Source: Nitrogeniibacter mangrovi
GTDB taxonomy: Bacteria; Pseudomonadota; Gammaproteobacteria; Burkholderiales; Rhodocyclaceae
Direction of reading: 5' to 3'
Assembly: GCF_010983895.1 (NCBI RefSeq)
Contig: NZ_CP048836.1
Coordinates: forward strand, 2,294,001-2,358,000
DNA length: 64,000 nt
The notes under the pieces were generated by a model. It did not search any database, was not told the DNA's origin, and saw only the letters and a list, made by a program, of their open reading frames with translations. The position numbers and the translations under genes are program-made. Shown piece by piece: positions 50,794 to 63,344 of the stretch (the stretch's first letter is position 1; each line of letters starts with the position of its first letter).

Positions 50794-50871
50794 CCTTGTC
50801 CTGTGTGTTACCGCGCGGCGGTTCCTTCATGGGCGAATGATATAATCCGCCCCCTTTGATTGGGGATTCGA

Positions 50872-51321
50872 ATGCGCATTACCCGCCGCCTGGAATTCGA
50901 TGCCGGACACCGCATTCCGGACCATGCCAGCCAGTGCAAACACTTGCACGGCCATCGTTACGTCATCGAGATCACCCTGGCCGGCGAGATCATCCAGGCA
51001 GCCGGCAATCCGGCCAACGGCATGGTGATGGATTTCGGCGACATCAAGCAAATCGCCAAGCGCCATCTGGTGGACCTGTGGGACCACGCCTTCCTCGCCT
51101 ATCGCGGCGACACGCCGGTGGTGGACTTCCTGGCCACCCTGCCCGATCACAAGACCGTCCTCCTTGACGTGGTGCCCACGGCCGAAAACCTCGCGCTGGC
51201 CGCCTTTCGCATTCTCGACCCGCACTACCGGGACACCTTCGGCAATCATCTCCAACTGACCCAGGTCCGCCTGTTCGAAACCCCCAACTGCTGGGCCGAC
51301 GCCACGCGCGACATGCTCTGA
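50872..51321 (+). CDS. queD: 6-carboxy-5,6,7,8-tetrahydropterin synthase QueD
   Basis: Second enzyme of queuosine/7-deazaguanine synthesis. It has 149 residues from MRITRRLEFDAGHRIP. Zinc His13, His26 and His28 and catalytic Cys22 (ASQCKHLHGHRY) fit the PTPS/QueD pattern, as does AENLALAAFRIL (Glu). GGGGA lies 5 bases before the ATG; a TTG four codons upstream is less likely. TATAAT at 50841-50846 is a likely -10. No other que gene is in the window. Confidence 0.94.
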   Translation: MRITRRLEFDAGHRIPDHASQCKHLHGHRYVIEITLAGEIIQAAGNPANGMVMDFGDIKQIAKRHLVDLWDHAFLAYRGDTPVVDFLATLPDHKTVLLDVVPTAENLALAAFRILDPHYRDTFGNHLQLTQVRLFETPNCWADATRDML

Positions 51322-51333
51322 CGCGGCGATTGC

Positions 51334-51383
51334 CGCACCGCAACGAAGCGCGACCCGATTTTTATCCGCACCGAAACGGTGCA
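51334..51383 (+). promoter_or_regulatory. Two NtrC-type enhancer sites
   Basis: Site 1 at 51367-51383 reads GCACC-GAAAC-GGTGCA and matches TGCACYNNNNNRGTGCA at 11 of 12 defined bases. Site 2 at 51334-51350 (GCACC-GCAAC-GAAGC) matches 8 of 12. Centres are 33 bp apart, three helical turns, and lie about -96 and -129 from the expected start, similar to the glnA arrangement of enteric bacteria. Site 1 could instead be an RNA hairpin, but no U-tract follows it. Confidence 0.6.
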
Positions 51384-51444
51384 TCGCAGGTCCATGCCCC
51401 CTCCTTATCCCCCATGAATGGCTCGCCAGCTCGAGGTTTCCGGC

Positions 51445-51460
51445 TGGCACGAAGCATGCG
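51445..51460 (+). promoter_or_regulatory. Sigma-54 (-24/-12) promoter of the amidoligase cluster
   Basis: TGGCACG (51445-51451), four bases, then ATGCG (51456-51460). It matches TGGCACG-N4-TTGCW at 10 of 12 positions, with the invariant GG and GC at exact spacing. The expected start of transcription is about 51471, leaving a 120-base leader before the ATP-grasp gene. No better sigma-70 promoter is seen in 51322-51590. Confidence 0.65.
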
Positions 51461-51590
51461 TTAGCGCACTCAGGTCGATGACCATCATGGCCACGCGGGC
51501 TTCTCTAGGCCGCTGCGACGCAGCCACGCCGTCGAGAAGCGAGCGCCGTGCCGCCATGCCATAACGAGAGCAACACACGAGGTGATACGC

Positions 51591-53006
51591 ATGGGAGCTT
51601 CCTTCTACAACGAAATGCATGCGGCCGACGGCAGCGTCCGACCCCATTACGGCGGCTTCGCCGAATGGCTCGACAGCACCCCCCCGGAGCGCATCGCGCG
51701 ACGCCGGGCCGAGGCCGACCTGGCGTTCCATCGGGTCGGCATCACCTTTGCGGTCTATGGCGAGGACGCCGGTACCGAACGGCTCATTCCATTCGACATC
51801 GTGCCGCGCATCATCCCGGCCGCCGAATGGACCGCCCTGGCCGCCGGCCTCAAACAGCGGGTGCGTGCGCTCAACGCCTTTCTGAAGGACATCTATCACG
51901 ACCAGGAGATCCTCGCGGCCGGCCGCATTCCGCCGGAACAGGTCCTCAACAACGGTCAGTTCCGTGAGGAGATGCGTGGGGTGGACGTGCCGGACGACAT
52001 CTACGCCCATATCGCCGGGGTCGATGTGGTGCGCGCCGGCGAAGGCGAGTTCTACGTGCTCGAAGACAACCTGCGCGTCCCCTCCGGCGTGTCCTACATG
52101 ATCGAGGACCGCAAGATGATGATGCGTCTGTTCCCCGAGCTGTTCGCGCGCCACAAGATCGCCCCGGTGCTGCACTACCCGGATCTGCTCTTCGACAGCC
52201 TGGGCGCCGTCGCCCCCAAGGGCGTGGAACGCCCGAACGTGGTCGTGCTCACCCCCGGCGCCTTCAACAGTGCCTACTTCGAACATACCTACCTGGCCCA
52301 GCAGATGGGCGTCGAACTGGTCGAGGGGCGCGACCTGTTCGTGCGCGACGACACGGTGTGGATGCGCACCACCCAGGGGCCGGCGCGGGTGGACGTGATC
52401 TACCGCCGGGTGGATGACGATTTCCTCGATCCGCTGGCTTTCCGCAAGGACTCCATGCTCGGCGTGCCGGGCCTGCTGTCGGCCTACAAGGCCGGGCGCG
52501 TGACCCTGGCCAACGCCATCGGCACCGGTGTGGCCGACGACAAGTCCATCTATCCCTACGTGCCGGAAATGATCCGTTTCTACCTGGGCGAGGAGCCGCT
52601 GCTCAACAACGTGCCCACCTACATGTGCCGCAAGGCCGAGGATCTGGCCTACACCCTGGCCAACCTGGCCGACCTGGTGGTCAAGGAGGTCCATGGCGCC
52701 GGCGGCTACGGAATGCTGGTCGGCCCCGCTGCCACGCGCGAGGAGATCGCCGAGTTCCGCAAACGCCTCGAGGCCCATCCGGAGCGCTACATCGCCCAGC
52801 CCACCCTGTCCCTGTCCAACTGCCCCACCTTCGTCGAATCGGGCATCGCGCCGCGCCACATCGACCTGCGCCCCTTCGTCCTGTCGGGCGAGCAGATCCG
52901 CATGGTGCCGGGCGGCCTGACCCGGGTCGCGCTGCGCGAGGGGTCCCTGGTGGTGAATTCCTCCCAGGGCGGCGGCACCAAGGACACCTGGGTGCTCGAA
53001 GCCTGA
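51591..53006 (+). CDS. Circularly permuted type 2 ATP-grasp protein (DUF404/DUF407)
   Basis: 471 residues from MGASFYNEMHAADGSV; GAGGTGA lies 5 bases before the ATG. Circularly permuted ATP-grasp fold: FAVYGED (54-60), the acidic metal/ATP motif YVLEDNLRVPSGVSYM (155-170) and, near residue 365, VVKEVHGAGGYGMLVG with the lysine and glycine-rich loop, then IRMVPGGLTRVALREGSLVV and SSQGGGTKDTWVL. Such proteins are predicted carboxylate-amine ligases. First gene of the cluster: the alpha-E gene follows after 34 bp. Catalytic residues look intact; substrate unknown. Confidence 0.92.
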   Translation: MGASFYNEMHAADGSVRPHYGGFAEWLDSTPPERIARRRAEADLAFHRVGITFAVYGEDAGTERLIPFDIVPRIIPAAEWTALAAGLKQRVRALNAFLKDIYHDQEILAAGRIPPEQVLNNGQFREEMRGVDVPDDIYAHIAGVDVVRAGEGEFYVLEDNLRVPSGVSYMIEDRKMMMRLFPELFARHKIAPVLHYPDLLFDSLGAVAPKGVERPNVVVLTPGAFNSAYFEHTYLAQQMGVELVEGRDLFVRDDTVWMRTTQGPARVDVIYRRVDDDFLDPLAFRKDSMLGVPGLLSAYKAGRVTLANAIGTGVADDKSIYPYVPEMIRFYLGEEPLLNNVPTYMCRKAEDLAYTLANLADLVVKEVHGAGGYGMLVGPAATREEIAEFRKRLEAHPERYIAQPTLSLSNCPTFVESGIAPRHIDLRPFVLSGEQIRMVPGGLTRVALREGSLVVNSSQGGGTKDTWVLEA

Positions 53007-53985: not shown

Positions 53986-54080
53986 TCCAGACTTACCGTC
54001 CGCGACCGGCCCCGGCGACCGGCGCGGATGTTTCCGGACCACCCCGGCATCAACGCAGTCATTTTTCGACGGAGTCCAGC

Positions 54081-57000
54081 GTGTCGATCCATGTCGCACT
54101 CAACCATGTCACCGAGTACCGCTATGACCGCCTGGTCGAACTCGGCCCCCAGGTCATCCGGCTCAGGCCCTGCCCCCACTCACGCACGCCGATCCGCGCG
54201 TTCAGCCTCAAGGTGACGCCCGGGGATCACTTCATCAACTGGCAACAGGATCCGCAATCGAACTGGCTGGCGCGCATGGTGTTTCCGGAGAAGACGGACA
54301 CCTTCCGCATCGAGGTGGACCTGGTCGCCGAGCTATCGGTGATCAACCCCTTCGACTTCTTCCTCGACCCGCACGCGGAGAAGATCCCGTTCGACTACGA
54401 GGCCTGGCAGCGCCATGAACTGACGCCCTATCTGTATACCTTGCCGCTGCTCGACGGCAGCGCGCCGCTGTTCGCCAAATATCTCGAGCGCATCGATCTG
54501 ACGCCGACACGCAGCGTGGACTTCCTCGTCGCCCTGAACCAGCGGCTGGAACAGGACATTGACTACACCATCCGCCTCGAACCCGGCATCCAGACCCCGG
54601 AAGAGACACTGCAAAAAGGCAGTGGCTCCTGCCGCGACACCGCGTGGCTGATGGTCCAGCTGTGTCGCCACATCGGCCTGGCGGCGCGTTTCGTGTCCGG
54701 CTACCTGATCCAGCTCACCCCCGACGTCAAGGCGCTCGACGGCCCCGTGGGCGCCGACCACGACTTCACCGACCTGCACGCCTGGTGCGAGGTCTACCTG
54801 CCCGGCGCAGGCTGGGTCGGCCTCGACCCCACCTCCGGGCTGTTTGCCGGTGAAGGCCACATCCCGCTCGCCTGCACCCCCGAACCGGCATCGGCGGCGC
54901 CCATCACCGGCGCGGTGAGCAAGAGCGAGGTCGAGTTCGGCCACGAGATGTCGGTGACCCGCATCTATGAAGCGCCCCGGGTCACCAAGCCCTACACCGA
55001 CGCCCAGTGGCGCGACATCGAAGCGCTCGGCCAGCAAGTGGACGCGGATCTCAACGCCATGGACGTGCGCCTCACCATGGGGGGCGAGCCGACCTTCGTG
55101 GCCGCGGACGACCCCGACGGCGCCGAATGGAACACCGACGCCCTCGGCCCGACCAAGCGGGTGCGCGCCGCCGAGCTCTATCACCGCCTCAAGGACAAGT
55201 ACGCGCCCGGCGGCCTGGCCCACTTCGGCCAGGGCAAGTGGTACCCGGGCGAACAGCTGCCGCGCTGGGCGCTGGGCTGCTTCTGGCGCCACGATGGCGA
55301 GGCGATCTGGAACAATCCGGCCCTCATCGCCGACGAGCGCAAGGACTACGGGGTCACCGAAGCCGACGCGGACCGCTTTCTGCGCCACTTCGCCCGCCAC
55401 CTCGGTCTCGATCCGGACTTCGTCTTCGCCGGTTACGAGGACGTCTTCTACTACATGTGGCGGGAGCGCCGCCTGCCCGACAACGTCGATCCCTTCGACT
55501 CGCGCGTGGACGACCCGCTCGAACGTGCCCGCCTGATGAAGGTCTTCGACCAGGGCCTCAAGACCGCCACCGGCCACATCTTCCCGATCATGAAGAACGC
55601 CGCCGGCGCCTGGGAGACCGGGCCCTGGTTCCTGCGTGCGGAGCGCTGCTATCTCATCCCGGGCGACTCGCCCATGGGCTACCGCCTGCCGCTCGATTCC
55701 GTCCCCTGGGTCAGCGAGGCCGAGTACCCCTGGGTCATCCCCACCGACCCCATGGCCCCGCTCGAACCACTGGCCAGTCACACGCAGATCCGTGCCCAGA
55801 TTCGCGCGCACGCCGGCAGCGACACCCTGAGCACGTCCGCACCACTGAGCGCCAGCCGGCTGCACGAGGGCGACGTGGCGGGGCGCCCGGCACCGGGCCA
55901 GTCCGCCCACTGGATCACCCGCTTCGCCATCTGCGCCCAGGCCCGTGAGGGCGTGATGTACATCTTCATGCCCCCCGCCGGCACCCTGGACGACTATCTG
56001 GAACTGGTCGCCGCGGTCGAAGCCGCCGCCGAAGACCTCGGCATCCCGGTCATCCTCGAAGGCTACCCGCCGCCGAGCGATCCGCGCATCAACCACTTCA
56101 GCGTCACCCCCGACCCAGGCGTGATCGAGGTGAACATTCACCCGGCCGCGCGCTGGGACGATCTGGTCGATCGCACCACCCATCTGTACGAAGCCGCCCA
56201 CCAGTGCCGCCTGAGCACCGAAAAGTTCATGCTCGACGGACGCCACTCGGGCACCGGCGGCGGCAACCACTTCGTGCTCGGCGGACGCACGCCGGCCGAC
56301 TCGCCCTTCCTGCGCCGGCCCGACCTGCTTGCCAGCCTCGTCGCCTACTGGCACAACCACCCGAGCCTGTCCTACCTGTTTTCGGGCCTGTTCATCGGCC
56401 CCTCCAGCCAGGCCCCGCGGGTGGACGAGGCACGCAACGACAGCCTCTACGAGCTCGAGATCGCCCTGCGCCAGATGCCCGAACCGGGCAGCTACGCGCC
56501 GCCCTGGCAGATCGACCGCCTGCTGCGCAACATCCTCATCGACGTCACCGGCAACACCCACCGGGCGGAGTTCTGCATCGACAAGCTGTATTCGCCGGAC
56601 GGCCCCGCCGGCCGCCACGGACTGGTCGAACTGCGCGCCTTCGAGATGCCGCCGCATGCGCGCATGAGCCTCGCCCAGCAGTTGCTGCTGCGCGCCCTCG
56701 TGGCCCGCTTCTGGGACACTCCCTACCGGCCCGAACGGCTGGCCCGCTGGGGCACCGAGCTGCACGACCGCTTCATGCTGCCGCACCATGTGGCGCAGGA
56801 TTTCCGCGACGTGATCGACGAGCTCAACGCCTTCGGCTACCCCTTCGAGTTCGCGTGGTTCGCGCCCCACTTCGCGTTCCGCTTCCCGCAGCATGGCGAG
56901 TTCGTCGTGCGCGGGATCAACGTCGAACTGCGCAATGCCCTCGAACCCTGGCACGTGATGGGCGAGGAAGGCGCCGTTGGCGGCACGGTGCGCTATGTGG

Positions 57001-57422
57001 ATTCCTCGCTCGAACGGCTCGAGGTCAAGATCACCGGCATGGCGCCGGATCGCTATCAGCTCACCTGCAACGGTGTGCCGGTGCCGCTCCAGCCCACCGG
57101 CGTGGTCGGCGAATTCGTCGCCGGGGTGCGCTACCGGGCCTGGCAGCCGCCCTCGTGCCTGCAGCCGCTGATCGGTGTGCATGCCCCGCTGGTGTTCGAC
57201 CTCGTGGACACCTGGTCGGGCCGCTCGCTGGGCGGTGCGCAATACCATGTCTCGCATCCGGGCGGGCTCAGTTTCGAGCGTTTCCCGGTCAATGCCTACG
57301 AGGCCGAAAGCCGGCGGCGTTCGCGCTTCTTCGGCTTCGGACACACCCCGGGCAAGGTCGCGCCGGCGCGGGTGACGGTCAACGCCGAGCACCCCTTCAC
57401 GCTCGACCTGCGCCGTCCCTGA
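54081..57422 (+). CDS. Transglutaminase-like / DUF2126 (predicted circularly permuted glutamine-synthetase-like ligase) protein
   Basis: 1113 residues from a GTG with GGAG 6 bases upstream (VSIHVALNHVTEYRYDRLV). Bacterial transglutaminase N-terminal domain (1-150), transglutaminase core with Cys184 (GSGSCRDTAW), His233 (DLHAWCEVYLPGAGW) and Asp249 (GLDPTSG), then DUF2126 (about 300-1100): LTMGGEPTFVAADD, GQGKWYPGEQLPRWALG, HFSVTPDPGVIEVNIHP and GTGGGNHFVLGG. Published domain analysis assigns DUF2126 to circularly permuted glutamine-synthetase-like amidoligases. The open frame continues upstream over the alpha-E gene but without similarity. Predicted peptidase/ligase partner of the ATP-grasp protein. 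Confidence 0.92.
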   Translation: MSIHVALNHVTEYRYDRLVELGPQVIRLRPCPHSRTPIRAFSLKVTPGDHFINWQQDPQSNWLARMVFPEKTDTFRIEVDLVAELSVINPFDFFLDPHAEKIPFDYEAWQRHELTPYLYTLPLLDGSAPLFAKYLERIDLTPTRSVDFLVALNQRLEQDIDYTIRLEPGIQTPEETLQKGSGSCRDTAWLMVQLCRHIGLAARFVSGYLIQLTPDVKALDGPVGADHDFTDLHAWCEVYLPGAGWVGLDPTSGLFAGEGHIPLACTPEPASAAPITGAVSKSEVEFGHEMSVTRIYEAPRVTKPYTDAQWRDIEALGQQVDADLNAMDVRLTMGGEPTFVAADDPDGAEWNTDALGPTKRVRAAELYHRLKDKYAPGGLAHFGQGKWYPGEQLPRWALGCFWRHDGEAIWNNPALIADERKDYGVTEADADRFLRHFARHLGLDPDFVFAGYEDVFYYMWRERRLPDNVDPFDSRVDDPLERARLMKVFDQGLKTATGHIFPIMKNAAGAWETGPWFLRAERCYLIPGDSPMGYRLPLDSVPWVSEAEYPWVIPTDPMAPLEPLASHTQIRAQIRAHAGSDTLSTSAPLSASRLHEGDVAGRPAPGQSAHWITRFAICAQAREGVMYIFMPPAGTLDDYLELVAAVEAAAEDLGIPVILEGYPPPSDPRINHFSVTPDPGVIEVNIHPAARWDDLVDRTTHLYEAAHQCRLSTEKFMLDGRHSGTGGGNHFVLGGRTPADSPFLRRPDLLASLVAYWHNHPSLSYLFSGLFIGPSSQAPRVDEARNDSLYELEIALRQMPEPGSYAPPWQIDRLLRNILIDVTGNTHRAEFCIDKLYSPDGPAGRHGLVELRAFEMPPHARMSLAQQLLLRALVARFWDTPYRPERLARWGTELHDRFMLPHHVAQDFRDVIDELNAFGYPFEFAWFAPHFAFRFPQHGEFVVRGINVELRNALEPWHVMGEEGAVGGTVRYVDSSLERLEVKITGMAPDRYQLTCNGVPVPLQPTGVVGEFVAGVRYRAWQPPSCLQPLIGVHAPLVFDLVDTWSGRSLGGAQYHVSHPGGLSFERFPVNAYEAESRRRSRFFGFGHTPGKVAPARVTVNAEHPFTLDLRRP

Positions 57423-57490
57423 GCGGGCATCGCTCCGTCAGAAATTCTGCAATACGGCCCCCGACGGCCCGTCAAGACCGGGTAAGATCG

Positions 57491-57522
57491 TCCCCCTGCA
57501 CCCCACCCGGGGCGCAGGGGGA
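57491..57522 (+). promoter_or_regulatory. Strong intergenic hairpin before the fused ATP-grasp gene
   Basis: TCCCCCTGC (57491-57499) pairs with GCAGGGGGA (57514-57522), with inner CCCC/GGGG pairing. No T-run follows, so it is not a classical terminator; it ends 18 bases before the next ATG. Possible RNA-stability or attenuation element. Confidence 0.5.
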
Positions 57523-57539
57523 TTTGCAAAAAGAAAGAC

Positions 57540-60038
57540 ATGGTCCGCACGCTGCTCTCGATCTACTCGCACCCGCCCAATCGTTTCGACGAAATGATGG
57601 TCGGCGACGGCCTCATCCGGCCGCACTGGCGCGAGCTGTTCGAGCATCTGGACGGCTCTTCGCCCGAGGCCATGCGCCAGCGCATCGATTTTGCCGAGCG
57701 CAGCATCCTCGAGGACGGGGTCGCCTACAACGTGTACGGCGACCCGGACGGCCAGGACCGCCCCTGGGCGCTCGATCCGCTGCCCTTCATCCTCTCCGCC
57801 GAGGAATGGCACACCCTCGAGGCCGGCATCGCCCAGCGCGCCCGCGTGCTCAACGCCATGCTCGCCGATCTGTACGGCGAGCAGCGCCTGCTGTCGCAGG
57901 GCCTGCTGCCGCCGGCACTGGTGTTCGGCCAGCACGGTTTTCTGTGGCCCTGTGTGGGCACCCAGCCGCCCGGCGGCGTGTTCCTGCATCAATATGCGGT
58001 CGACCTGGCGCGCTCGCCGGACGGGCAGTGGTGGGTCATCGCCGACCGCACCCAGACACCGACCGGCTCGGGCTACGCGCTCGAGAACCGGCTGATCGTC
58101 TCGCGCGTGTTCCCGCGCCTGTTCCGCGACATGCGCATCGAACGGCTCGCCGGCTTCTACGCGGCGCTGCAATCGAGCCTCGAACGCCTCGCCCCGGTCG
58201 AGAACGGCGAGCGTCCGCGCGTCGTCGTGCTCACCCCGGGCCCCTATAACGCCACCTACTTCGAACACGCCTACCTGTCGCGCTACCTGGGTTTTCCGCT
58301 GGTGGAAGGGCAGGACCTGACGGTGCGCGGCGACACCGTCTATCTCAAGACGCTCTCCGGCCTGCAGCGGGTGCACGCGATCATGCGCCGGGTCAACGAC
58401 GATTTCTGCGATCCGCTCGAACTGCGTGGCGAGTCGGCGCTCGGCGTGCCGGGGCTCATGAACGTGGTGCGCGCCGGCCGGGTGTTCATCAGCAACGCCC
58501 TGGGCAGCGGCCTGCCCGGCTCCTCGGCGGTGATGGGCTTCCTGCCCGCGCTGGCGCGCGAGCTGCTCGGCGAGACCCTGAGCCTGCCCTCGGTGGCCAC
58601 CTGGTGGTGCGGCGAGGAACCCGCCATGGACTATGCCCTCGAGCATCTCGACGGCCTGGTCATCAAGCCGGCCTACCCCACCCAGCGGCTCGAGCCCGTC
58701 TTCGGCCACACCCTGCGCGGCGCCGAGCGCGCCGAGATGATCAGCCGCATCCGCGCCCGCCCCCACGCCTACGTGGCCCAGGAATGGGTGCGCCTGTCGC
58801 AGACGCCGGTGTGGAGCCGTGCCCACGAGCGCCGCCTGCTGGCGCGCAACGTGGGCCTGCGCATGTACGCGGTGGCCACGCCGGACGGCTACAAGGTCAT
58901 GCCCGGCGGCCTGGCCCGCGTCGCCGGCAGCTCCAACGCGCTGGTGCTGTCGATGCAGCGCGGCGGCACCGCCAAGGACATCTGGGTGCGGGCCGAAGGC
59001 GCCGTCGATCCGTTCAGCCTGCTCAAGAAATCGGTGAGCGTGAGCGACCTGGTGCGCAGCGGCAGCAACCTGTCCTCACGGGTGGTCGAGAACCTGTTCT
59101 GGCTGGCGCGCTACAGCGAACGGCTCGACGTCACCGCACGCCTGCTGCGGGTGGCCATCGCCCAGCATATCGACAACGCCGGCGAACTCACCCCGCCGCT
59201 CGAAGCGCTGCTCACCGTGGCGGAGCGCACCCGTATCCTCGGCCCGGTCGACCCCGAAGCGCCGGCCGTCAGCCTCGAATCGCGCCTGTGCGCGGCCGTC
59301 CAGGATCCGGGCGCCGAGAACAGCATCTCCGACGCCTGTCGCCGCCTGCTGTGGGCCGCCTCGCAAGTGCGCGAACGCCTGTCCCTCGATCACTGGCATT
59401 CGCTCAACCGCCTCCAGCGCGATCTGCAGGGCATGCGCACCGGCGGCACCGAGCTGGGCGACATGGGGATGCTGCTCGACATGGTGCTGCAGGTGTCCTC
59501 CTCGCTGACCGGTTTCTCGCTCGACAACATGACCCGGGACACCGGCTGGCGCTTCCATGTGCTCGGCCGCCGCATCGAACGCCTCGCCTTTCTGTGCGAT
59601 GCGATCGGCGGCTTCCTCACCCTGCACTTCGAACGCGACAGCGACAACCTCGAATGGCTGCTCCAGGTCACCGACAGCATCATCACCTACCGTTCCCGCT
59701 ACGCACGCTCGCCCGAGATCCTCTCGGTCATCGACCTGAGCGTGATGGACGAGAGCAACCCGCACGGCGTGGCCTTCCAGATCGTCGAGCTGATCGCCGA
59801 ACTGAGCGCCCTCGACGCCGAGCTCGGCGAGCTGCCGGTCGAGCCCATCCGCCGCGCCGGACAGGCGGTGCGCGCCTTCGACCTGCACCGCTTCGAACAG
59901 CGCCCGCGCCAGGCCGCCACCCAGCTGGCCGAGAGCCTGAGCGCCCTGCTGGCCGAAGCCCATGCGCTGTCCGACAAGATCGCCATGCGCTTCTTCACCC
60001 ATGTCGATAGCGTCAGCCACCTGACCCTGGCGAGCTGA
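57540..60038 (+). CDS. Fused circularly permuted ATP-grasp / alpha-E protein
   Basis: 832 residues: ATP-grasp part (1-500) and alpha-E part (about 510-832, beginning SSRVVENLFWLARYSERLDV). The first part aligns with the 51591-53006 protein (VAYNVYGDPDGQDRPW; VVVLTPGPYNATYFEHAYLS; RVNDDFCDPLELRGESALGVPGL), but key motifs differ: the EDNLRVPSG motif reads ADRTQTPTG (168-176) and the glycine-rich VKEVHGAGGYG reads IKPAYPTQRLE. It may bind a different substrate or be a non-catalytic partner. AAGAAAG lies before the ATG. It ends 2 bp before the next gene. Confidence 0.92.
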   Translation: MVRTLLSIYSHPPNRFDEMMVGDGLIRPHWRELFEHLDGSSPEAMRQRIDFAERSILEDGVAYNVYGDPDGQDRPWALDPLPFILSAEEWHTLEAGIAQRARVLNAMLADLYGEQRLLSQGLLPPALVFGQHGFLWPCVGTQPPGGVFLHQYAVDLARSPDGQWWVIADRTQTPTGSGYALENRLIVSRVFPRLFRDMRIERLAGFYAALQSSLERLAPVENGERPRVVVLTPGPYNATYFEHAYLSRYLGFPLVEGQDLTVRGDTVYLKTLSGLQRVHAIMRRVNDDFCDPLELRGESALGVPGLMNVVRAGRVFISNALGSGLPGSSAVMGFLPALARELLGETLSLPSVATWWCGEEPAMDYALEHLDGLVIKPAYPTQRLEPVFGHTLRGAERAEMISRIRARPHAYVAQEWVRLSQTPVWSRAHERRLLARNVGLRMYAVATPDGYKVMPGGLARVAGSSNALVLSMQRGGTAKDIWVRAEGAVDPFSLLKKSVSVSDLVRSGSNLSSRVVENLFWLARYSERLDVTARLLRVAIAQHIDNAGELTPPLEALLTVAERTRILGPVDPEAPAVSLESRLCAAVQDPGAENSISDACRRLLWAASQVRERLSLDHWHSLNRLQRDLQGMRTGGTELGDMGMLLDMVLQVSSSLTGFSLDNMTRDTGWRFHVLGRRIERLAFLCDAIGGFLTLHFERDSDNLEWLLQVTDSIITYRSRYARSPEILSVIDLSVMDESNPHGVAFQIVELIAELSALDAELGELPVEPIRRAGQAVRAFDLHRFEQRPRQAATQLAESLSALLAEAHALSDKIAMRFFTHVDSVSHLTLAS

Positions 60039-60040
60039 TC

Positions 60041-60943
60041 ATGGCGCGATACCACATCCTCCACGAAACCAACTACGACTACGGTGGCGCGGTGTCGCTG
60101 TCGCATCAGGTGCTGCATCTGGTGCCGCGTCCGTCCGACTGGCAGACCTGCCTGCGCTACGAGCTGAGCATCGATCCGGAACCGTCGTGGCGCCGCGCCG
60201 GTCAGGACGCGTTCGGCAACTCGGTCGAATGGCTGGGCTTCTACCAGCCCCATCCGGCACTCAACGTGCGCGCGGAAATGGAAGTCGAGGTGCGTCCGCG
60301 CGGCGCCATCGATCTGGCCGAATCGCTGCCGTGGGACGAACTGGCCCGACGCCTGATCTATCAGGGCGGCGTGGCGCCCCGCGCCGACGACCTGGCGGCC
60401 AAACGCTTCCTGTTCGAGTCGCCCAACGTGCGCGTGAAGAACGAGCTGCGCGCCTATGCGCTCGACTGCTTCCCCCCGGGCCGAGCGCTGCTGGAGGGCG
60501 CCGCCGCCCTGATGGCGAAGATTTTCGACGAATTCACCTTCGACGCCGAAGCCACCTCCATCGCCACCCCGGTGCTCGAGGTGCTCGCCAACAAACGCGG
60601 GGTGTGCCAGGACTTCGCCCATCTGATGATCGCCTGCCTGCGCGCGCTCGGACTGCCGGCCCGCTACATGAGCGGCTATCTGCTCACCCATCCGCCCCCG
60701 GGGCAGCCGCGCATGATCGGCGCGGACGCCTCGCACGCCTGGGTGTCGGTGTATGCGCCCGACACGGCGCTGGGCTGGGTGGAGTTCGACCCCACCAACA
60801 ATCTCCAGCCGGACACCCAGCACATCACCATCGGCTGGGGGCGCGACTTCAACGACGTCTCGCCCCTGCGCGGCATCATCCTCGGCGGTGGCGGGCACGA
60901 GCCGGAGGTGGCGGTCACGGTCACGCCCCTGGACGAGCGCTGA
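60041..60943 (+). CDS. Transglutaminase-like protein
   Basis: 300 residues. Bacterial transglutaminase N-terminal beta domain (1-140; [20 protein letters not shown]) and the papain-like core with Cys189 ([20 protein letters not shown]), His in [12 protein letters not shown] and Asp in [10 protein letters not shown], so the triad is complete. Probably a peptidase or acyl-transferase of the cluster, cytoplasmic as no signal peptide is seen. Starts 2 bp after the fused gene. A GC-rich hairpin lies just after the stop. Confidence 0.92.
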
Positions 60944-61055: not shown

Positions 61056-61793
61056 GTGAACAAGCAACTGCACCTGTTCATCAAGGCCCTGGTCGACAGC
61101 GTCCGCGACCTGGCCCCGATCGTCGTCGTCATCGCCTTCTTCCAGCTCGTGGTGCTGCAGCAGCCGATCCCCAACCTGGGCGAGATCTTCTTCGGCGCGA
61201 TCCTCGTGGTCCTCGGCCTGACCTTTTTCGTGCGCGGCCTGGAGATGGGCCTGTTCCCCATCGGCGAGAAGATGGCCTACGCCTTCGCCCGCAAGGGCTC
61301 CGTGCTGTGGCTCATGGCCTTCGCCTTCGCCCTCGGTTTCGGCACCACCGTGGCCGAGCCGGCGCTGATGGCGGTGGCCGACGAAGCCGCGCAGATCGCC
61401 GCCGACAGCGGCGTCATCGCGCGCGACAAGGCCGCCATGAAGGACTACGCCACCGGCCTGCGCTATACCGTCGCGATCTCGGTCGGCTTCGCCATCGTGG
61501 TCGGCGTCATCCGCATCATCCGGGGCTGGCCGATCCAGTACCTGATCATCGGCGGCTACGTCGGCGTCGTCGTCATGACCCTGTTCGCACCGGAGCAGAT
61601 CATCGGCATCGCCTACGATTCGGGCGGGGTCACCACCTCGACGATCACGGTGCCGCTGGTCGCCGCGCTGGGCATCGGCCTGGCCTCCTCCATCCAGGGG
61701 CGCAACCCCATGATCGACGGCTTCGGCCTCATCGCCTTCGCCTCGCTCACGCCCATGATCTTCGTCATGGGCTACGGGATGCTGCTCTCATGA
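61056..61793 (+). CDS. DUF1538 membrane protein A
   Basis: 245 residues from a GTG ([16 protein letters not shown]). Six or so hydrophobic segments (about 18-38, 42-62, 80-100, 135-158, 163-185, 200-243). Conserved DUF1538 stretches: [17 protein letters not shown] and [20 protein letters not shown], and [19 protein letters not shown]. An ATG at 60999 would add 19 residues but would sit only 7 bases after a TATAAT (60987-60992) that is a likely -10. Overlaps gene B by 4 bases. Function unknown; a transporter is plausible. Confidence 0.85.
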
Positions 61794-62590
61794 TGGGCTG
61801 GTGGATCGGTTTCGGTCACGAACTGGCGGTCACGGCGGTGGACGTGCTGCCCATCGCCGGCATCCTGTTCGGCTTCCAGCTGCTGGTCATCCGCCGGCCC
61901 GTACCCCAGCTCAAGAGCGTGCTGACCGGCTTCGCCTATGTGCTGATCGGCCTCACCCTGTTCCTCCAGGGGCTGGACCAGGCGCTGTTCCCGCTCGGCA
62001 AGCTCATGGCCCGCCAGCTGACCGATCCGGCCTTCATCTTCGCCGGCCTCGACCACATCCCCGCCACCATCGGCTGGCGCGACTACCTGTGGGTGTATCT
62101 GTTCGCCTTCGCCATCGGCTTCTCGACCACCATCGCCGAACCCTCGCTGATCGCCGTCGCCCTCAAGGCCGAGGCGGTCTCGGGCGGCACCATCAGCGTG
62201 TGGGGCCTGCGCGTGGCGGTGGCCATCGGCGTGGCGATCGGCATCGCCCTGGGGGCTTACCGGATCGTCACCGGCACGCCGCTGCACTGGTACATCATCG
62301 CCGGCTACGTGGTCGTGATCGCCCAGACCCTGCGCGCCCCGAAAACCATCGTCGCCCTCGCCTACGACTCGGGCGGCGTCACCACCTCCACCGTCACCGT
62401 GCCGCTGGTGACCGCGCTCGGCCTCGGCCTGGCCGGCACCGTCCCCGGGCGCAGCGTGCTGATCGACGGCTTCGGCCTGATCGCCTTCGCCAGCCTGTTC
62501 CCCATCATGTCGGTCATGGGCTACGCCCAGTTGTCCGAATGGCGTCGCCGCCGGCACGCGGCGCACGACGCCGAAGCAAGGAGAAACTGA
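61790..62590 (+). CDS. DUF1538 membrane protein B
   Basis: 266 residues from [19 protein letters not shown], paralogous to the previous gene: the same motifs recur as [39 protein letters not shown] and [19 protein letters not shown]. Several membrane spans, then a basic C-terminus ([10 protein letters not shown]). ATGA overlap with gene A implies coupled translation and probably a heteromeric complex. In other bacteria the two halves may be fused as one long DUF1538 protein (recollection, not checked). Confidence 0.87.
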
Positions 62591-62592
62591 CC

Positions 62593-62943
62593 ATGCACTT
62601 CAAACTGCTGATCGCCCTGGTCGAGGACGACAAGACCGACGCGGTCATGGCCGCCGCGCGGGAAGCCGGCGCCACCGGCTGCACCGTGATCAACCAGGCG
62701 CGTGGCGAAGGCTTCGAGAAGGCCAAGACCTTCTTCGGCCTCTCGCTCGAAACCCAGCGCGACATGCTGCTGTTCCTGGTCGAGGAACACCTGAGCCGGG
62801 AAATTCTCGAGACCATCGCCGTCAAGGGCGAATTCGAGGCCAAGCCCGGCACCGGCATCGCCTTCCAGATCGACGTGGAGGACGCGGTCGGCGTCACCCG
62901 CCAGATGAAGCAACTCGAAAGCGCCGTGGAGAACAAGCTATGA
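62593..62943 (+). CDS. PII-like signalling protein
   Basis: 116 residues with the ferredoxin-like PII fold: KLLIALVEDD, an alpha helix, TVINQARGEGFEKAKTFFG and the C-terminal GTGIAFQIDVEDAVGV stretch resembling PII beta4. It lacks the T-loop uridylylation tyrosine region of GlnB/GlnK. AGGAGA precedes the ATG. Such PII-like proteins next to membrane proteins usually gate them in response to small molecules (nucleotides, bicarbonate). Its end overlaps the CBS gene by 4 bases. Confidence 0.85.
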   Translation: MHFKLLIALVEDDKTDAVMAAAREAGATGCTVINQARGEGFEKAKTFFGLSLETQRDMLLFLVEEHLSREILETIAVKGEFEAKPGTGIAFQIDVEDAVGVTRQMKQLESAVENKL

Positions 62944-63344
62944 GCCCCCGTCAGATCGTCCGCGTCAGCGAGGTCATGCAGGCCGAGGTCCACACCATCG
63001 ACGGCATGGCCACCATCACCGAAGCGTTGCGGGCCATGAAACAGCACGGCGCCGAAGGGCTCATCGTGGACAAGCGCCACGACGACGACGAGTACGGCAT
63101 GCTGCTCATCTCCGACATCGCCCGCCACGTGCTGGGCAAGGACCGCTCGCCCGAGCGGATCAACGTCTACGAGGTCATGGCCAAGCCCGTCATCACGGTC
63201 GACCCGGCCATGGACATCCGCTACTGCGCGCGTCTGTTCACCCGCTTCGACCTGTCGCGCGCGCCGGTGGTGGACAACGGCCGCGTCGTCGGCATCGTGA
63301 GCTTCACCGATCTGGTGCTCGAGGGGCTGTACCAGCACATCTGA
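62940..63344 (+). CDS. CBS-domain protein
   Basis: 134 residues, two CBS motifs (about 8-65 and 75-134): EVMQAEVHTIDGMATITEAL, AEGLIVDK and EVMAKPVITVDPAMDIRYCA, RAPVVDNGRVVGIVSFTDLV. A Bateman pair that would bind adenosine nucleotides. The ATG overlaps the PII-like stop. Last gene of the DUF1538 operon. Confidence 0.92.
   Translation: MSPRQIVRVSEVMQAEVHTIDGMATITEALRAMKQHGAEGLIVDKRHDDDEYGMLLISDIARHVLGKDRSPERINVYEVMAKPVITVDPAMDIRYCARLFTRFDLSRAPVVDNGRVVGIVSFTDLVLEGLYQHI

Follow-up and report, generated by a model that had tools for sequence, protein, structure and literature searches.

A putative NtrC-activated sigma-54 promoter ahead of an amidoligase cluster in Nitrogeniibacter mangrovi, and an NtrC box apparently kept without sigma-54 in Polynucleobacter

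Introduction

Which signal switches on the amidoligase cluster of Nitrogeniibacter mangrovi? Five adjacent genes, the first with its ATG at 51591, carry the domains of the CP-ATP-grasp/Alpha-E/transglutaminase cluster (Pfam), a widespread but biochemically poorly understood system. A sequence-only reading had proposed that the region in front of them is a sigma-54 promoter served by NtrC. The analysis reported here covers the window, i.e. the whole 64-kb stretch of DNA around the cluster, together with the rest of the genome and the orthologous loci of other bacteria. Its outcome would place the system among the standard reactions to a shortage of nitrogen, next to glnA and the ammonium transporter, and thereby gives the condition under which the substrate of the cluster is to be sought.

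Promoter elements between queD and the first ATP-grasp gene

The intergenic region (Table 1) contains a -24/-12 element with the exact spacing that had been claimed for it. Indeed, direct reading of TGGCACGAAGCATGCG places the GG at 51446-51447 and the GC at 51458-51459, which is the canonical distance. The core TGGCACG-N4-ATGC (TGGCACGAAGCATGC, 51445-51459) has one mismatch out of 11 to TGGCACG-N4-TTGC (A for T), the -12 half being ATGC and not TTGC, and the count rises to two out of 12 once the final W, here a G, is included. The near-perfect NtrC palindrome is likewise present as described, and its centre stands 71 bp upstream of the sigma-54 GG, which corresponds to about -96 relative to a transcription start predicted near 51471.

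The weaker site upstream, CGCACCGCAACGAAGCG, does lie exactly 33 bp from the good box as had been stated, but it carries four mismatches out of 12, and about 77% of 332-base control windows hold an NtrC-like site as good, so that it cannot serve as evidence. The tandem glnA-type layout, with two boxes about three turns apart, is therefore unsupported at the amidoligase promoter. The CGCACC half-site of this weak site is also seen by eye in the nearest relative (L010). Neither a sigma-70-like promoter nor an intrinsic terminator was found in 51300-51600, and no Rfam family matched at 50800-51700.

Table 1. Features of the amidoligase locus, in window coordinates
Feature	Coordinates	Strand	Basis or remark
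queD, PTPS family	50872-51321		Upstream of the intergenic region
Weak NtrC-like site CGCACCGCAACGAAGCG	51334-51350	+	8/12 bases; at best a CGCACC half-site
NtrC-type palindrome CGCACCGAAACGGTGCA, CGCACC-N5-GGTGCA	51367-51383	+	11/12 bases, 1 mismatch
Sigma-54 promoter -24/-12 element TGGCACGAAGCATGCG	51445-51460	+	GG/GC spacing exact
Sigma-54-like match in the same intergenic region	51538-51553	opposite	2/12 mismatches
Circularly permuted ATP-grasp type 2 protein (CP_ATPgrasp_2), 471 aa	51591-53006	+	Pfam PF14403, E=6e-170
Alpha-E protein, 314 aa	53041-53985	+	Pfam PF04168, E=1e-101
Transglutaminase-like + DUF2126 putative amidoligase	54057-57422	+	Pfam PF09899, PF08379, PF01841; start codon approximate
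CP_ATPgrasp_2-Alpha-E fusion, second unit of the cluster	57540-60038	+	Pfam
Second transglutaminase-like protein	60041-60943	+	Pfam PF01841, PF08379
DUF1538 protein	61772-62590		Downstream of the cluster
P-II-like protein	within 62560-62943		PF00543
Protein with CBS-type matches	62940-63344		

Chance expectation in the window and the genome

With a tolerance of one mismatch, the chance expectation for the 64-kb window is 0.30 NtrC boxes, against one observed, and 2.2 sigma-54 cores, again against one observed. Allowing two mismatches out of 12 raises the counts in the window to nine for sigma-54-like matches and six for NtrC-like boxes. The sites are unremarkable singly; their pairing, position and conservation are remarkable.

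Across the whole 4.24-Mb genome, 29 NtrC boxes are found at a tolerance of one mismatch. Five of them have a correctly oriented sigma-54 element 40-200 bp away, and all five elements show one or two mismatches, the search having admitted up to three. By chance, about 0.6 such pairs would be expected, as estimated from the roughly 2% of 332-bp control windows at two mismatches. The pairs are located at the amidoligase cluster (71 bp), at nirB (73 bp), at a nitrate-reductase-like gene (73 bp) and at two further loci, L062 and L063.

Regulators and comparable promoters in the same genome

Both proteins that such a promoter would use are encoded once. The rpoN gene gives the only TIGR02395 match of the genome (478.5 bits), and a single ntrC exceeds the curated cut-off (TIGR01818, 691 bits), its product having an intact GAFTGA loop (read in L046).

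Similar promoters are found elsewhere in the genome. The gene behind one of the pairs has NirB as its best match, and the molybdoenzyme gene behind another, known as a partial protein, matches formate dehydrogenase alpha best and assimilatory nitrate reductases next; in both, the box stands 73 bp from the GG. The glnA promoter includes the sigma-54 element TGGCATGATCCCTGCT and two NtrC boxes with two mismatches each, 83 and 113 bp from the GG as worked out by hand. These three promoters resemble that of the amidoligase cluster in having an NtrC box upstream of the -24/-12 GG, at 73-113 bp. The glnA promoter differs in its two boxes 30 bp apart, whereas the amidoligase promoter has one good box.

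The two P-II genes are mixed controls for the pairing of box and sigma-54 element. The gene at 1172730-1173047 (L150, G000:C1:1172730-1173157) is preceded by a perfect sigma-54 element at about 95 bp, with no NtrC box within two mismatches across the 3.3-kb locus. At the other locus (L189, G000:C1:3980860-3980889), two overlapping one-mismatch NtrC boxes lie about 900 bp before the P-II gene at 3981791, and no sigma-54 element is present within two mismatches.

Conservation upstream of orthologous ATP-grasp genes

Conservation was assessed in the best 80 of at least 585 confirmed loci, a set from which records close to the window genome may be absent; all 80, each with at least 320 bp of upstream sequence, entered the counts. 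Several of the nearest matches among named genomes are Rhodocyclales. A lack of conservation in close relatives had been named beforehand as an argument against the promoter, and both sites were found to be conserved. Within two mismatches out of 12, a sigma-54 element precedes 49 of the 80 best loci (1.8% in shuffles and 2.1% in windows elsewhere in the same loci) and an NtrC box 40 of them (2.2% and 2.0%, respectively), and both sites occur together at 30-140 bp in 23/80 versus 2/1600 control windows. Averaged over 23 clusters formed at 80% protein identity, the fractions come to 67% for the sigma-54 element, 50% for the NtrC box and 26% for both. In 44 of the 49 sigma-54-bearing orthologues, the element reads towards that same gene from a position at -44 to -130 relative to its start. 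Together with rpoN, a GAFTGA-bearing ntrC and the same architecture at nirB, the nitrate-reductase-like gene and glnA, these conserved sites support the NtrC/sigma-54 interpretation of the sequence-only reading.

The 23 paired loci span Rhodocyclales, Burkholderiales and one Cellvibrionaceae genome. The strict pair is missing in the other 57 of the best 80 loci; the Steroidobacter-type loci L076 and L078 have the sigma-54 element only. No sigma-54 element within two mismatches is found in any of the 11 loci (L082-L084, L086, L088-L090, L093, L094, L104 and L106) that are presumed from their names to belong to Oxalobacteraceae, and rpoN is present in all five of the genomes tested among them.

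In relatives from the same family or order, 18 orthologous loci offered sufficient upstream sequence (L023, with too little, was left out). The sigma-54 element is present in 12 of them; L018 and L026 have neither site. The nearest relative (G008), whose protein is 89% identical, displays TGGCACGGAGCATGCG and CGCACCAAAATGGGGCA 70 bp apart. Perfect NtrC boxes occur in three of the best 80 loci (L075, L101 and L123) and in two of the family or order relatives (L013 and L016), and another of these relatives (L028) has a perfect sigma-54 element. The distances from box to GG gather near 50, 60, 71, 82 and 103 bp, with R=0.61 at a period of 10.5 bp for n=33 loci that are not independent, and p of about 0.02 when recomputed on the 19 distinct distances. 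Because the loci are related, helical phasing is only suggestive.

Extent of the regulated unit

The pair of sites is not repeated at the second unit of the cluster. In relatives, a box followed by a sigma-54 element was found upstream of the fusion gene in none of 20 regions, one of which (L176) comprises only about 116 bp, and L162-L164 show a box with two or three mismatches at -96 of that gene. In the window, the gap 57423-57539 contains neither a sigma-54 element nor an NtrC box within two mismatches. The 400 bp ahead of the paralogous ATP-grasp gene of the same genome (L038) are free of sigma-54 elements, and the only NtrC-like box upstream of it has three mismatches. Six genomes of the same genus (L030-L035) carry the NtrC-like box CGCACCAAACAGGTGCA and variants of it, with one to three mismatches, at about -95 of the paralogous gene, and no sigma-54 element within two mismatches between this box and the gene. 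Thus, among the regions tested, the sigma-54 element is specific to the first unit, and the second unit would be read from the same transcript by read-through.

By eye, a strong GC-rich inverted repeat, CCCCCTGC...GCAGGGGG, lies between the two halves of the cluster in the same gap and possibly lowers read-through. Downstream, the cluster is adjoined by the P-II-like protein, which resembles a nitrogen sensor, and the ORF ahead of the genes at 61772-63344 resembles, by eye, an additional copy of DUF1538.

An NtrC box apparently without sigma-54 in Polynucleobacter

Eight of the best 80 loci (L096-L098, L100, L102, L103, L121 and L123) were singled out because they have no -24/-12 element and yet, in seven of them, a box within two mismatches stands about 90 bp before the gene. 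In five of the eight genomes rpoN was not found, and a sixth has only a fragment of it with stops. The sample was extended to the genus of Polynucleobacter yangtzensis, with 61 genomes, 48 of which have the ATP-grasp gene (loci L200-L246). In 35 of these 48, rpoN was not found, and some of these absences may be gaps, as the completeness of the genomes is not given. Within 300 bp upstream, 31 of the 35 rpoN-less genomes have an NtrC box with at most two mismatches (30 at -91 to -94 and one at -44); a sigma-54 element within three mismatches out of 12 is absent from all 35. Of 12 examined genomes of the genus that carry rpoN, seven display the box and two the sigma-54 element; all seven with the box are without the element, the loss of which is thus not a simple consequence of losing rpoN. 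The CAC and GTGC arms are invariant and the centre is variable in 33 boxes, which were chosen for their position. A further GCACCA half-site follows the box.

The genome of P. yangtzensis contains four copies of the strict palindrome and none of its reversed control. The four boxes precede the ammonium transporter gene amtB, glnA, an MbtH-like gene beside a condensation-domain protein (NRPS), and the amidoligase cluster. At amtB and the MbtH-like gene, the box is flanked on its far side by the start of a second ORF, and each is therefore to be taken as the likelier of two targets. With its boxes marking this set of genes, NtrC would control the cluster without sigma-54.

The regulator itself is altered in these bacteria. 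An ntrC gene above the curated cut-off was found in six of the first eight genomes, the exceptions being G041 and G044, and in G044 the box is present while neither rpoN nor a full ntrC match was found. All six NtrC proteins that were read keep the recognition helix, and their GAFTGA motif is substituted by GAFPGA (twice), GAFQGA, GAFAGA or GAFANA (twice); one of them belongs to a genome that still has rpoN (G048). The NtrC of P. yangtzensis is among those without GAFTGA. These loop readings cover only four members of the genus sample (G042, G046, G047 and G048). No sigma-70 -35/-10 motif common to the rpoN-less relatives was seen by eye, and a TTCAAA-N17-TATAAA sequence of P. yangtzensis recurs in none of the others.

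A genus without RpoN offers a natural experiment, in which the NtrC box of the cluster has been kept through the loss of sigma-54. The product of the cluster therefore probably matters to the nitrogen economy and is not an accident of one regulon. It is rather probable that the cluster belongs to the core nitrogen regulon, that its box outlasts the sigma-54 element and that the NtrC of P. yangtzensis acts without sigma-54. In company with glnA and amtB, the cluster looks like a part of this core able to outlive sigma-54. A search of the literature on Polynucleobacter NtrC and rpoN returned no paper on an NtrC box without sigma-54 in this genus, and the case of a box kept while rpoN is lost is apparently new.

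Proposed mechanism and alternative explanations

Judged from these comparisons, the intergenic region of N. mangrovi is very probably an NtrC-activated, sigma-54-dependent promoter of the amidoligase cluster, induced by nitrogen limitation. Under a shortage of ammonium or glutamine, NtrC in its phosphorylated form would occupy the palindrome at 51367-51383, and a DNA loop would bring it to the RNA polymerase-sigma-54 complex at 51445-51460. Its ATPase activity would then open the promoter, with transcription from near 51471. The transcript would include the ATP-grasp, Alpha-E and transglutaminase/DUF2126 genes, to which read-through probably adds the second ATP-grasp/Alpha-E fusion and transglutaminase. 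The binding of NtrC, the looping, the start site, the induction and the extent of the operon are all predicted here from sequence. As for the enzymes, the fold classes suggest, as the likeliest function, that they form and remodel amide or isopeptide bonds of the glutamyl type, with a peptide or protein as the substrate, in the service of nitrogen economy.

The promoter might be a real sigma-54 promoter served mainly by another enhancer-binding protein, with a palindrome that is not the decisive activator site. Many such proteins are available, as the genome gives 30 matches of at least 236 bits to the ntrC model, ntrC included, and half of the best orthologues (40/80) have no box within two mismatches. 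The box is nevertheless enriched about 20-fold upstream of the orthologues and recurs in the genome with similar spacing at nirB, the nitrate-reductase-like gene and glnA. Moreover, a cluster of like composition in Burkholderia cenocepacia is reported, in the part of the source available, to depend on NtrC (PMC5491218). Another activator is thus unlikely.

Still less probable is a palindrome that merely forms an RNA hairpin at the 3' end of the queD message, next to a -24/-12 match arisen by chance. Its sequence, GCACCG-AAA-CGGTGC, can fold into a 6-bp hairpin 46 bp past the queD stop (z = -1.8 for the 51-base stretch), and single sigma-54 matches of such quality are expected by chance. However, neither strand shows a T run after the palindrome, nor is a terminator predicted; the box, as judged by eye, is retained in relatives whose upstream sequence differs (L013, L015 and L016); and it keeps a phased distance to the GG. 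The joint occurrence in orthologues far above the control windows also disfavours this hairpin or terminator reading. It is most improbable that the element leaves the cluster aside and serves only queD next to it or an independent small or antisense RNA. A leader of about 120 bases would separate the predicted start from the ATG, and the opposite-strand match points away from the cluster, but the element reads towards the same gene in nearly all the orthologues that carry it and no Rfam family matches the region.

Comparison with known systems

The control of the N. mangrovi cluster by NtrC and sigma-54 had been put forward as a first physiological hint for the system. This stands for the organism itself but not for such clusters in general, since related ones have been described in B. 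cenocepacia H111 and Pseudomonas putida (PMC5491218, PMC7801951, PMC8050072, as far as the available parts of these papers go). In B. cenocepacia H111, expression of the genes I35_5080-83 (BCAM1233-1236) is reported to drop 8.2-, 9.4-, 9.4- and 6.0-fold when ntrC is mutated and nitrogen is limiting, and the genes appear among the listed common targets of sigma-54 and NtrC (PMC5491218). They encode DUF404/DUF407 (ATP-grasp), DUF403 (Alpha-E), transglutaminase-like and large transglutaminase-like proteins, and thus resemble the window cluster with its ATP-grasp, Alpha-E and two transglutaminase-like proteins, one of them large; the likeness is one of gene make-up (PMC5491218). B. cenocepacia belongs to another branch of the Betaproteobacteria, and the named range includes no ATP-grasp/Alpha-E fusion in the part of that report available (PMC5491218).

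The Anbu-type operon PP_2685-2688 of P. putida is attributed to NtrB/NtrC, with PP_2686-2688 rising 11- to 37-fold and PP_2685 1.1- to 4.8-fold under nitrogen limitation, according to the available sections of PMC7801951. As the rise of PP_2686-2688 is seen in each of the three strains used, one of them an rpoN mutant, sigma-54 need not be the only route (PMC7801951). A 3.7-fold reporter induction is given for the PP_2688 promoter (PMC8050072), PP2685-2687 are also found up in PMC3325844, and Anbu is described as highly expressed under nitrogen starvation (PMC6376114), each in the passages available. Anbu operons share with the window cluster the ATP-grasp and transglutaminase genes and the induction by nitrogen limitation (PMC7801951, PMC8050072), and that of Yersinia additionally has Alpha-E, as the window cluster does (PMC6376114). 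They differ in the proteasome-like Anbu protein, and no DUF2126 protein is named for them in the accessible text. Among the five window genes, no match to a proteasome family was found (Pfam). In marine metagenomes, DUF403/404/407 and the transglutaminase domain are associated with urea-metabolism domains, as stated in the accessible part of PMC3597751.

A precedent for Polynucleobacter is provided by Caulobacter and Rhodobacter capsulatus, in which an NtrC lacking GAFTGA, the sigma-54 loop, is reported to act at sigma-70 promoters (PMC10274813, in the part available). These bacteria are Alphaproteobacteria and their NtrC has the loop deleted, whereas the Polynucleobacter-type protein keeps the length of the loop and carries substitutions in it.
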